Source: Haloterrigena salina JCM 13891 (lineage in GTDB: Archaea > Halobacteriota > Halobacteria > Halobacteriales > Natrialbaceae). From it: DNA of 46,875 nt. The first letter of the stretch is position 1. Every line of letters begins with the position of its first letter. Below are positions 3,017-6,046 of the stretch, in pieces. A program made the translations under genes and the position numbers. Below the pieces are notes generated by a model. The model ran no database searches, was not told the DNA's origin, and saw nothing but the letters and a program-made list of their open reading frames with translations. Location: NCBI RefSeq assembly GCF_000337495.1, contig NZ_AOIS01000048.1, positions 21,185 to 68,059 on the forward strand. The letters are read 5' to 3'.

Positions 3017-4258
3017 CTACGCAGCGTCGTCGCCGTCGTCCTCGAGGACGGCGAGCCGCGAGTCCCGCAAGAGCACCTTCTTGACGATCGAGGGGTTCTC
3101 GAGCAGTCGGTGTTTGGCGTGGGCGCCGCGGCCGCGCCCGCGACCCTCGCGTTCGGACTGGATCACGTTGAGGAAGTTCTGTTCCTGGAGGATCTCCTGG
3201 ACGCGTCGTTCGGAGAGCACGTCGAAGTCGAGTTGCCGGGCGACCTCCTTGTACTGGTTGTAGATGATCTTCGTCGGAAACTCCTTCTCCGTGCTGTTCT
3301 CGGTCAGCAGCGTCAGCGAGTAGAGAATGGCCTTGGCCTGCTGGGGCGAGCCCTCGATGAGTTCGTTGAAGCGGTCGGCCTCGGTCTTCTCCTTGGCGTC
3401 GCGGACGTGATCGGCGGTGACCCGCGTCGCGTTCTGTTTCTTCGCGATGCGACCGGCGTTGCGGAGGATGTCGATCGCCTTGCGCGCGTCGCCGTGTTCC
3501 TGGGCCGCCAGCGCCGCCGTGAGGGGGATGACGTCGTCCGAGAGCACGCCGTCGTGGAAGGCGTCGCGCCGCTTCTCCAAGATTTCGACCAGCTGGTTGG
3601 CGTCGTACGGCGAGAAGACGAGTTCGTCACGAGAGAGACTGGATTTGACGCGTTCCGAGAGGTGATCGGGGAAGTCGATCTTATTCGAGATACCGATGAT
3701 GCCGATACTCGAGTCCGAGATCCGCCGGTTTTCTCCCGCACGGGAGAGTTTTCGGAGGACTTCGTCGTCCTCGAGCATATCGATCTCGTCTAAGATGACG
3801 ATGGTGACGTCGGTGCAGTGATCGATCGCCTGCCAAAGTCGCTTGTAGTAGTCGCCGGTGCCGAGGCCGCGATCGGGGACGGAGACGCCGCTCCGATCGG
3901 GTTCGTTGACGATCTGGGCGATCGTCTTCACGATCGACGCCTCGGTGTTTTGCTCGCCGCAGTCGATGAAGGCGTACTTGACGGTAATGTCGTCGCGCTG
4001 TGCTTCGGAAATTACCCGCTGGGTGATCGAACGGGAGATGAGTGACTTGCCGGTTCCGGTCTTGCCGAAGATGAACAGGTGGTTGGGTTCGCTCCCGAAA
4101 ATAGCCGGGTTCAGGGCGTCCGCAACCCGTTGCATCTGCTCGTCGCGCCCGACGATCCGATCCGGACCGGGCAGGTGCGTAATCTCGAGCAGGCGCTCGT
4201 CGGCGAAGACCGGATCGTCGTACCGAAAGAGCGGGTCTCGATCGTCGTTTGCGGACAT
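3017..4258 (-). CDS. cdc6: Orc1/Cdc6-type replication initiator
   Basis: A 413-aa archaeal Orc1/Cdc6 protein, an AAA+ ATPase that binds origin repeats and loads the MCM helicase. It has Walker A GKTGTGKS at 65-72, Walker B DEID at 157-160, a sensor-1 Asn in ISNK (190-193) and a sensor-2 Arg in GDARKAI. The C-terminal winged helix covers about residues 300-395, including a basic RGRGRG stretch likely to touch DNA. I start at ATG 4258; the frame stays open to 4612, but that sequence overlaps origin repeats and is not protein-like. The gene points away from the origin repeats immediately upstream, the usual arrangement of a primary haloarchaeal origin. Confidence 0.95.
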   Translation of the reverse strand: MSANDDRDPLFRYDDPVFADERLLEITHLPGPDRIVGRDEQMQRVADALNPAIFGSEPNHLFIFGKTGTGKSLISRSITQRVISEAQRDDITVKYAFIDCGEQNTEASIVKTIAQIVNEPDRSGVSVPDRGLGTGDYYKRLWQAIDHCTDVTIVILDEIDMLEDDEVLRKLSRAGENRRISDSSIGIIGISNKIDFPDHLSERVKSSLSRDELVFSPYDANQLVEILEKRRDAFHDGVLSDDVIPLTAALAAQEHGDARKAIDILRNAGRIAKKQNATRVTADHVRDAKEKTEADRFNELIEGSPQQAKAILYSLTLLTENSTEKEFPTKIIYNQYKEVARQLDFDVLSERRVQEILQEQNFLNVIQSEREGRGRGRGAHAKHRLLENPSIVKKVLLRDSRLAVLEDDGDDAA

Positions 4259-4309: not shown

Positions 4310-4323
4310 TCGCGGATGTAAAT
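4310..4323 (+). repeat. Origin-recognition-box fragment, copy A
   Basis: The short sequence TCGCGGATGTAAAT matches the right half of the origin repeats (TCGCGGATGTAA) but lacks the C-rich left half. It sits just upstream of the cdc6 start and may be a mini-ORB or a decayed copy. Confidence 0.5.
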
Positions 4324-4429
4324 ACCGGCTGAATAGGCCTATGACGGCCGCGAGTGCCCGTATCGCTTGCGGTGACAGGAGACGGCGGCCTCGCGCTTCT
4401 AACCGCGGCGGCGACTCGGGCGTGTCAAA

Positions 4430-4457
4430 CACAGACACCCCCGTCGCGGATGTAACG
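4430..4457 (+). repeat. Origin recognition box, copy B
   Basis: A full-length copy: a CACAGACACCCCC block followed by GTCGCGGATGTAACG. It has the same orientation as copy C and opposite orientation to D and E. It shares ACACCCCCGTCGCG and TGTAAC with copy C. Confidence 0.75.
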
Positions 4458-4598
4458 CTGACATCGGTCAACCGCCGAACTTCGATCCGCCGCCGAAGTC
4501 GGCAGAACCGAGGGCAGACGTCACGGAAATGAGAAGAACCCGTCCGAGAGCCGGGAAAGCGGGTGATTTTGCCTCCTGTGCGACGCGCGTCTGACACA

Positions 4599-4630
4599 GA
4601 GGGGACACACACCCCCGTCGCGTTTGTAAC
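4599..4630 (+). repeat. Origin recognition box, copy C
   Basis: A 32-bp element starting GAGGGGACACACA and ending TCGCGTTTGTAAC. It matches the reverse complement of copy E at 31 of 32 positions; the only difference is G/A before TCGCG. The pair encloses 124 bp that contain the central hairpin and copy D. Confidence 0.85.
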
Positions 4631-4668
4631 GGGAACGGCGGGGAGGGGGTTGCAGAATTATCCCGGAT

Positions 4669-4700
4669 TTCGGCGAGACTCGAGGCACTGACTCGCCGAA
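4669..4700. repeat. Central inverted repeat inside oriC
   Basis: Perfect 9-bp arms, TTCGGCGAG and CTCGCCGAA, are separated by 14 nt. The right arm abuts recognition-box copy D. The hairpin lies between the two 32-bp inverted recognition boxes. Confidence 0.6.
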
Positions 4701-4714
4701 TTTACATCCGCGAC
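4701..4714 (-). repeat. Origin recognition box, copy D (inverted)
   Basis: TTTACATCCGCGAC is the reverse complement of the GTCGCGGATGTAA half seen in copy B. It is followed by CACAGGTGTGTT, a diverged form of the C/A-rich half. Its orientation is opposite to A, B and C. Confidence 0.65.
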
Positions 4715-4754
4715 ACAGGTGTGTTCCACGAAGAGACCCCCACACCTAGATGGC

Positions 4755-4786
4755 GTTACAAACGCGATGGGGGTGTGTGTCCCCTC
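4755..4786 (-). repeat. Origin recognition box, copy E (inverted)
   Basis: This is the inverted partner of copy C: GTTACAAACGCGA followed by a run of five G and GTGTGTGTCCCCTC. The 31/32 identity over such a distance implies strong selection or recent copying. A CTAG tetramer lies a few bases upstream at 4746-4749. Confidence 0.85.
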
Positions 4787-4940
4787 AGCAATTCAGGCGA
4801 GCACGATCGCCCGAAGAGGTATCAGTTCGAAACTGCACAGAGAGTCCGCAGCGTCGAGAAACACGGATTCAACAAACTTCAGTGAGCCAACTCATTTCAG
4901 GAAACGTGGATCCGACGGCACCACCGATCGTCTTCGAACC

Positions 4941-5030
4941 CGTCTAAACCAGTTCTAGACCGTCTAGACTAGTTCTAGATCTAGTTCTAGCTAGTCTAAA
5001 ACAAAGTTAGTTAGATACAGTAGGGTAGAG
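4941..5030. repeat. CTAG-rich, AT-rich element at the origin edge
   Basis: Seven CTAG tetramers occur within 40 bp (starting at 4955, 4964, 4969, 4975, 4981, 4987 and 4991), flanked by GTCTAAAC-like variants and followed by an AT-rich tail (about 4994-5020). Overlapping small palindromes such as GTCTAGAC and CTAGATCTAG are visible. CTAG is generally scarce in haloarchaeal DNA, so the cluster is conspicuous. It could be a DNA-unwinding element, a protein-binding array, or a methylation-sensitive site. Confidence 0.7.
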
Positions 5031-5266: not shown

Positions 5267-6046
5267 ATGACTCCCGAGCCGTCAGCGACCGAGCCGCCGT
5301 CTGATCGGACCCCGCCAGCCGTCGCCGTCGTCGACGCCCAGTTCCCGGGCAACGTCGGTACCATCGCTCGAGCGATGAAGAACTTCGGATTCGAGGACCT
5401 CCTGCTGGTCGATCCGCCGGAGCTCGATCCCGACGGAGAGGCCTACGGATTCGCGGGCCACGCCCGAGAGGACGTGCTTCCGAACGCGACGGAGATCTCG
5501 TTCGATCGGCTCGTCGTGGAGTATCACACGATCGGTTGTACGGCGGTCACCAACGAGGACGACCGGAGTCACGTCCGGTTCCCGTTTTCGACGCCCGCGG
5601 ACCTCGCGGAGCGACTGCCGACCGTCGAGGCGCCGACGGCGCTGGTCTTCGGCCGCGAACGCGTCGGGCTGACGAACGAGGAACTCGCCCGCATCGACGA
5701 GATCTGTTCGATCCCGGCCAGCGCCGAGTACCCCGTCCTCAACCTCGGTCAGGCCGCGACGATCACGCTGTACGAACTGCGCTCGCTGGCCCTCGACGAC
5801 GACGAGACCCAGCTGCCGGACGTCGAACGCGTCCGCGCCCCAGAACCGACGGTCGATCGTCTCTACGATCAGTGGGCAGACCTCCTCGGCGAGATCAACC
5901 ATCCCGGAGAGAAACGCGATAAGACGATGCGGATGCTCCGGCGCGTGTTCGGCCGCGCGGATCTGACCGAACGCGAGGCGAACACGCTGCTCGGCATTCT
6001 TCGGCGGGCGACCGAACGACCCGCCGAGAACCGAGGACGCGAGTAA
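5267..6046 (+). CDS. trmJ: tRNA 2'-O-methyltransferase, TrmJ type (SPOUT)
   Basis: A 259-aa SpoU/SPOUT methyltransferase. The three knot motifs are present: NVGTIARAMKNFGF at 29-42 with the catalytic-type Asn and Arg, LVFGRERVGLTNEE at 126-139, and YPVLNLGQAATITLYEL at 155-171. A helical C-terminal extension (about 195-250) is typical of TrmJ. Archaeal TrmJ methylates the ribose of position 32 in tRNA anticodon loops using S-adenosylmethionine. I start at ATG 5267; the frame is open from 5195, but the added residues do not resemble the family. The gene diverges from cdc6 across the origin and is probably transcribed alone. Confidence 0.88.
   Translation: MTPEPSATEPPSDRTPPAVAVVDAQFPGNVGTIARAMKNFGFEDLLLVDPPELDPDGEAYGFAGHAREDVLPNATEISFDRLVVEYHTIGCTAVTNEDDRSHVRFPFSTPADLAERLPTVEAPTALVFGRERVGLTNEELARIDEICSIPASAEYPVLNLGQAATITLYELRSLALDDDETQLPDVERVRAPEPTVDRLYDQWADLLGEINHPGEKRDKTMRMLRRVFGRADLTEREANTLLGILRRATERPAENRGRE

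Follow-up and report, generated by a model that had tools for sequence, protein, structure and literature searches.

A 46,875-nucleotide stretch of the Haloterrigena salina JCM 13891 genome, hereafter the window, contains a cluster of seven CTAG tetramers in 40 bp next to a predicted replication origin linked to an orc1/cdc6 gene. Our preferred reading, which we hold with a probability of about 0.5, is that this cluster is a target array for the orphan methylase Zim, placed in or beside the easily melted DNA of the origin, and that the methylation state of the array lowers re-firing. A chemical mark on the DNA may in this way help control when copying starts.

The general pattern is already known, and the window is an instance of it. 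For Haloarchaea, Blow et al. 2016 (PMC4752239) described CTAG clusters that precede orc1/cdc6 genes at several origins of a genome and whose presence correlates with a conserved orphan m4C methylase; the motif appears as CATG in the running text of that paper and as CTAG in its Fig. 6D legend. The original prediction had named no described function for such a cluster. The published resolution is 500 bp, the window size used there for plotting CTAG density. Later papers describe what CTAG methylation does in haloarchaea as open or unknown (Fullmer 2019, PMC6471742; DasSarma 2019, PMC6606915). Among the papers listed by full-text searches of an open-licence library, we recognised none that locates CTAG clusters in unwinding DNA. 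The features of the locus are as follows.

3017–4258, minus strand: replication initiator of the orc1/cdc6 family (TIGR02928), distinct from the universal oriC1 Orc1 on comparison with the paralogues of the same genome.
4310–4323, plus strand: short ORB core adjoining the cdc6 start (repeat analysis).
4431–4457, plus strand: third ORB-like element, a direct repeat of 4605–4631 (89%); column conservation 0.96 at 4436–4455.
4599–4631, plus strand: ORB-like element, one arm of a 33-nt inverted repeat (97% complementary); conservation 0.86 at 4616–4635.
4700–4713, minus strand: short ORB core, inverted copy of 4310–4323 (repeat analysis).
4746–4749, no strand: lone CTAG beside the ORB inverted repeat, at its inner arm (site count).
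4754–4786, minus strand: ORB-like element with G-string, the other arm of the 33-nt inverted repeat; conservation 0.95 at 4756–4775 (18 loci).
4933–5004, plus strand: three imperfect 20-nt direct repeats, ahead of and inside the cluster (the other two copies 70 and 75% identical to the first).
4955–4994, no strand: CTAG cluster, seven CTAGs in 40 bp with 14 possible target cytosines over the two strands (site count, density kept in relatives).
4964–5023, no strand: least stable 60 bp of the cdc6–trmJ intergenic region, candidate unwinding DNA (nearest-neighbour sum −67.4; mean −88.3, s.d. 6.6).
5267–6046, plus strand: RNA methyltransferase of the TrmJ/YjtD family, across the gap from cdc6 (TIGR00050, 169.2 bits against a cut-off of 167.15).

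The seven tetramers start at 4955, 4964, 4969, 4975, 4981, 4987 and 4991, and these positions, like that of the lone site at 4746, are confirmed exactly; a CTAG equivalent to the lone site is present in four congeners (L012–L015). The window as a whole holds 24 CTAGs, compared with 69.2 ± 8.5 expected from dinucleotide-preserving shuffles, and eight of the 24 fall inside one 250-bp span. A 400-kb sample of the genome, which over-represents cdc6 regions, contains 211 (0.53 per kb), and in the sample and window together CTAG is the most under-represented of all tetramers, with an observed/expected ratio of 0.46; the avoidance that had been assumed for haloarchaea therefore holds in the DNA sampled. 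At 0.53 per kb, the Poisson probability of at least seven CTAGs in 44 bp is ~8e-16, and no other 60 bp in the sample and window has more than five. Three CTAGs separated by gaps no longer than 12 bp, which we refer to as a triple-CTAG, occur 13 times in the whole 4.84-Mb genome, on five contigs, with five of the 13 being overlapping matches within the window's cluster. On four of these contigs (C17, C37, C48 and C64), the pattern lies ~370–740 bp upstream of a cdc6 homologue.

The window origin is predicted to be a cdc6-linked origin other than the universal one. All three ORB-like repeats carry G-strings and, together with the two short cores, span 4310–4786. The placement "beside the replication origin" calls for one qualification: the origin is a predicted, cdc6-linked one and not oriC1. 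The latter identity was rejected, as the window's cdc6 is matched (E 1e-140) in only 14 of the 70 genomes searched, 69 of them from family f5 and one from f6. The Orc1 encoded on contig C17 of the same genome, by comparison, has an orthologue in 131/131 genomes (E 1e-120), and the oriC1 on C17 likewise has a CTAG cluster. The haloarchaeal oriC1 is an AT-rich region between inverted ORBs with G-strings (PMC3936714, PMC3528665); the window cluster lies outside the inverted ORBs of its origin, at a distance of ~170 bp.

The cluster is retained in relatives that share the cdc6–trmJ gap. A scan of named genomes yielded 71 loci, of which 57 (L074–L130) were taken as orthologues and L131–L144 were left out as paralogues or distant relatives. 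Together with the window, 48 of the orthologous loci make up a set of 49 that we take to be Natrialbaceae from their genus names, except where the titles state it. When the AT-richest 120 bp at 450–1500 bp upstream of cdc6 is picked blind to CTAG, it contains at least three CTAGs in 44 of these 49 loci (the exceptions are L094, which is a MAG, L109, L111, L116 and L118). When 18 of the 49 loci are aligned, column conservation is 0.32–0.40 through the cluster, equal to the surrounding unconserved level, and 0.86–0.96 through the three ORBs. Since the number of CTAGs is held where the columns cannot be aligned, it is site density that is kept, not sequence. Outside Natrialbaceae (family f1 in our genome survey), three CTAGs in 60 bp are found at one of nine window-type cdc6 loci, of which L126 covers only 264 bp; f17 relatives of these loci carry Zim. 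One f17 genome (G143, cdc6 75% identical) has a triple-CTAG at C1:258436, ~480 bp upstream of its window-type cdc6 (C1:258928), and thereby differs from most named loci of Halorussus (genus g45 of f17), which lack one upstream. Genes of other cdc6 families, too, have CTAG clusters upstream. Among the cluster places listed for 12 non-Natrialbaceae genomes, 19/32 lie upstream of cdc6 matches by comparison of coordinates.

The cluster also coincides with the least stable DNA of its surroundings. Stability was searched between cdc6 and trmJ, or, at loci with no trmJ found, over 1.5 kb, and the least stable 60 bp overlaps the cluster in 42 of the 49 Natrialbaceae loci, the window included, compared with an estimated ~1/10 from length alone. 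In being locally least stable, the window cluster has a property of DNA unwinding elements, and an unwinding element, the alternative raised in the original prediction, gains support from this. In the H. salina genome, a cluster of at least three CTAGs is present upstream of five of 14 cdc6 genes, all five overlapping the least stable DNA, and absent from the other nine (a fifteenth cdc6, on C60, was left out with only 382 bp upstream). The clusters average 62% AT, compared with 0.43–0.45 in their flanks, and as CTAG itself is 50% AT, the spacers must be AT-rich too. Three Halorussus loci (L120, L121 and L129) have no cluster, yet contain equally unstable stretches, so CTAG is not required for low stability. 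At oriC1, examined over up to 1.4 kb in 121 genomes, at least three CTAGs in 120 bp are found in 40, and 28 of the 40 overlap the least stable 60 bp, rising to 37 when the second least stable stretch is included; none of the five f6 clusters overlaps the single least stable stretch.

These observations raise the question of whether the array might be a methylation-independent unwinding or bending element, chosen for its weak TA steps and low melting energy, with CTAG as one building option among others. Its coincidence with the least stable 60 bp and its high AT content relative to the flanks are what such an element would predict, but its composition is not: over the 49 loci, the most enriched tetramer in the AT-richest 120 bp is CTAG, with 255 occurrences against 81 expected from dinucleotide shuffles, i.e., about threefold, followed by GTTC (50 against 20), while TTAA and CTTA, both more AT-rich than CTAG, are depleted in the same DNA. 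In favour of such an element, the CTAGs of Natrialbaceae oriC1 are helically phased near 10.25 bp (z 11.4, 10 loci), and weaker phasing is seen in eight oriC1 loci of other families (z 3.3–3.9, with 3.9 at 10.0 bp); against it, f4 oriC1 shows no phasing (z −0.5) and the window-type origin shows it only weakly (z 1.5). Helical phasing was therefore rejected as a general rule, the strong 10-bp period over pooled oriC1 clusters being mainly due to the shared layout in Natrialbaceae, and we do not claim binding to one face of the helix. Taking this together with the comparison of Zim-bearing and Zim-lacking genomes below, we consider an element of this kind rather unlikely.

As for the layout itself, Natrialbaceae oriC1 clusters have spacings of, e.g., 49, 20–22, 10 and 31 bp, and the H. 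salina one (L148, on C17) lies ~697 bp upstream of orc1. In several f1, f4, f12 and f17 genomes, the inter-ORB DNA has a pair of CTAGs at a distance of 42–50 bp; a TTTAT-like block lies in the interval, and a CCGTA/CCGCA block immediately precedes the second CTAG. These blocks could be a promoter or a further origin element inside the melting region.

The methylase that would act on these sites is predicted from sequence to be encoded on contig C45 of the same genome, where a 371-residue Zim homologue with a PF01555 match would be the cognate orphan CTAG methylase. Its best NCBIfam match is CcrM, far below the model cut-off. It is 50.6% identical over 88% to the methylase on the Methanothermobacter plasmid NC_001337, which we take to be the CTAG-specific M.MthZI. 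Of 293 genomes sampled across the order, 266 carry Zim. Separate searches found it in 108/109 genomes of family f4 and in 117/117 Natrialbaceae, for which reason the window-type origin offers no Zim contrast. The 27 genomes without it, seven of which were assigned by elimination between two genome surveys, comprise 26 of f5 and one of f6. We infer that f5 is Haloferacaceae and that its genus g33 is Halorubrum, the latter because Zim is patchy in Halorubrum (PMC6471742). Some Zim matches hold one or two in-frame stops (G031:C1:48399, G058:C1:1251092, G103:C1:369874 and others), possibly due to decay or to alignment running past the gene end.

A Zim contrast is provided by oriC1. Of 131 genomes with Orc1, 11 were left out (eight Zim-bearing ones with the match at a contig start, and three by choice), and the remaining 120 plus the H. 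salina genome gave 121 upstream regions, 94 from Zim-bearing and 27 from Zim-lacking genomes; the selection is asymmetric in that the short Zim-lacking loci G080, G088 and G173 (1290, 950 and 1070 bp) were retained. Three CTAGs in 60 bp occur in 31/94 Zim-bearing and 0/27 Zim-lacking genomes, an association that is not independent of descent because 26 of the 27 Zim-lacking genomes belong to one family. At least three CTAGs in 60 bp are found in 10/11 genomes of f1, 10/11 of f4, 5/7 of f6 with Zim, 2/6 of f12, 1/2 of f10, 1/5 of f14, 1/6 of f17 and 0/3 of f7, and among f5 genomes with Zim in 1/38 outside g33 and 0/5 within it. Many Zim-bearing genomes thus have no cluster, and Zim is not sufficient for one. 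The five g33 genomes with Zim and no oriC1 cluster (G186, G229, G234, G273 and G280) have Zim matches of E ~1e-152 to 1e-155, nearer to the query than those of many other f5 genomes (1e-125 to 1e-130), which recent re-acquisition of Zim would explain. A triple-CTAG anywhere in the genome (293 genomes) was also tried as a marker of Zim in g33; it was found in 2/5 genomes with Zim and 5/17 without, and is uninformative there because it is rare in both states, so that the inter-ORB count is needed.

An ORB pair was found in 101 of the 121 oriC1 regions, the other 20, five of them Zim-lacking, having no pattern match. Zim-bearing groups except g33 have 8–24 CTAGs per kb between the ORBs, compared with 0.3–3.1 outside them; examples are f1 (24.4 and 2.1), f4 (18.7 and 1.3), f14 (15.2 and 0.3) and Zim-bearing f5 outside g33 (8.4 and 0.8). 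Zim-lacking f5 genomes outside g33 have none in 945 bp of inter-ORB DNA (5 genomes), the single f6 genome without Zim has one in 192 bp, and g33 without Zim has 3.2 per kb compared with 0.67 outside (16 genomes); in g33 with Zim, inter-ORB CTAG is found in 0/3 genomes. Against dinucleotide shuffles, the inter-ORB counts are 45 against 23.2 expected in Zim-bearing f5 outside g33 (31 genomes) and 172 against 54.9 in other families with Zim (45 genomes), compared with 10 against 8.8 in g33 without Zim (16 genomes), 1 against 3.8 in the other Zim-lacking genomes (6 genomes) and 0 against 1.4 in g33 with Zim (3 genomes). A Fisher test on the inter-ORB data gives P 0.001, uncorrected. The mean AT content between the ORBs is 0.50–0.52 in the two CTAG-enriched groups and 0.55–0.56 in the other three. 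Inter-ORB DNA is equally or more AT-rich in Zim-lacking genomes, so the CTAG excess has disappeared there with no loss of AT-richness, which also counts against a methylation-independent unwinding element. In genus g57, the single sampled Zim-lacking genome has no inter-ORB CTAG, and four Zim-bearing ones have 1, 1, 2 and 2. The methylation-sensitive control element of the original prediction gains support insofar as the CTAG excess at oriC1 tracks Zim, with the qualification that this is confounded with descent.

We prefer control through methylation state to methylation-independent unwinding because CTAG exceeds what composition accounts for and the excess is absent without Zim. In such a mechanism, Zim would methylate both strands of the CTAG array; replication would leave the array hemimethylated, marking a recently fired origin, and the hemimethylated array would have a lower chance of re-firing until Zim restored full methylation. 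The effect could be exerted via a reader protein, or via an altered tendency of the DNA to melt or to be loaded. To our knowledge, no established mark is available by which an archaeon tells a fired from an unfired origin, and we know of no reader protein for CTAG methylation. Older melting data suggest that N4-methylcytidine does destabilise duplexes. Various reports, on the contrary, show no destabilisation (PMC4477647), and an easing of melting by m4C itself was left as a weak candidate. Genome-wide, CTAG is m4C-methylated at 97.0 and 98.7% in two Natrinema (PMC6696651) and at 74.5% in Haloterrigena salifodinae (PMC8103870). A more specific version, in which m4C marks set by Zim in the unwinding DNA make the fresh, hemimethylated origin refractory and so control re-initiation across Haloarchaea, with Zim-losing lineages losing CTAGs and keeping the AT-rich region, is possible but in our view doubtful.

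Several points speak against methylation control, which we advance as a hypothesis. Few independent losses of Zim underlie the association, and the clusters of Zim-bearing f5 genomes are weak. The window cluster is outside the inverted ORB pair, and only one of the nine non-Natrialbaceae loci is clustered despite Zim in f17 relatives. At a spacing of 4–6 bp, the sites are too close together for each to bind a protein of its own. By analogy with Haloferax lucertense, where unmethylated CTAGs concentrate in low-GC DNA (PMC11001535), the window cluster might be under-methylated. Furthermore, a Haloferax volcanii strain without several RM genes, including the CTAG methylase, had no growth defect, although only one origin is CTAG-enriched in that species (Ouellette 2018, PMC5867850). 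The combination of a 40-bp element, a candidate methylase and the contrast between genomes with and without Zim makes a role for CTAG methylation testable.

The array could, alternatively, serve a CTAG-recognising repressor of cdc6 or trmJ transcription. Bacterial TrpR has tandem CTAG operators, and the array's position between two divergent genes and the imperfect 20-nt repeats would suit an operator of that style, as would the CTAG enrichment reported ahead of Haloferax lucertense start sites (PMC11001535). Adjacent CTAGs are, however, 4–62 bp apart, with peaks at 5 and 6 bp and mostly A or T in the flanking positions, and across the clusters neither a fixed spacing nor a flanking consensus was found. 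Together with the unalignable columns and the clusters upstream of other cdc6 families, this makes an operator array improbable.

It is very unlikely that the cluster has no function and is a relic, either of CTAG avoidance being relaxed in non-coding stretches or of some mutation process local to origins. CTAG avoidance could indeed be weaker outside genes, nine of the 14 cdc6 upstream regions in the genome are cluster-free, and clusters are present on C65, the fifth triple-CTAG contig, where a search for a cdc6 homologue gave none. This 35.6-kb contig (L146; first 20 kb 58% GC) has several clusters, with eight CTAGs at 409–505, and is perhaps a plasmid with another origin type. In the H. salina sample, however, AT-rich 120-bp windows lying away from cdc6 contain fewer CTAGs than expected (22 against 35.7, ratio 0.62) and those within 1.5 kb upstream of cdc6 are enriched above chance (32 against 18.9, ratio 1.69), for which reason AT-richness does not explain the cluster; those of C65, counted separately, are neutral (22 against 20.1, ratio 1.10). 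Nor would a relic be expected to persist across a family under full sequence turnover. A centromere-like or anchoring site for chromosome segregation, suggested by dense short repeats at a conserved position near the origin, is hardly credible, given that the inter-ORB location at oriC1 points to initiation.

Returning to the array as a Zim target, its relationship to known systems can be stated as follows. It shares with the clusters of Blow et al. 2016 (PMC4752239) the motif, the gene neighbour, the occurrence at several origins per genome and, though confounded with descent in our data, a correlation with the methylase. Unlike the 500-bp windows used there, our analysis locates the sites in the least stable stretch and, for oriC1, inside the ORB pair, and it adds the maintenance of density despite sequence turnover and the presence of AT-rich DNA lacking the CTAG excess where Zim is missing. 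Like haloarchaeal oriC1 (PMC3936714, PMC3528665), the window has G-string ORB-like repeats beside cdc6 and a low-stability stretch nearby, whereas its CTAGs are outside the inverted ORBs and its cdc6 is of a different family. With the Dam/SeqA GATC cluster at E. coli oriC, the array has in common that targets of an orphan methylase, in the form of closely spaced palindromic tetramers, are found at an origin; the difference is that the E. coli system uses GATC and m6A, and the present one CTAG, m4C and an archaeal initiator. By this analogy, the array would work like Dam/SeqA without being a member of that system and, if the more specific version above is true, would be an archaeal counterpart of it that acts at the unwinding step.
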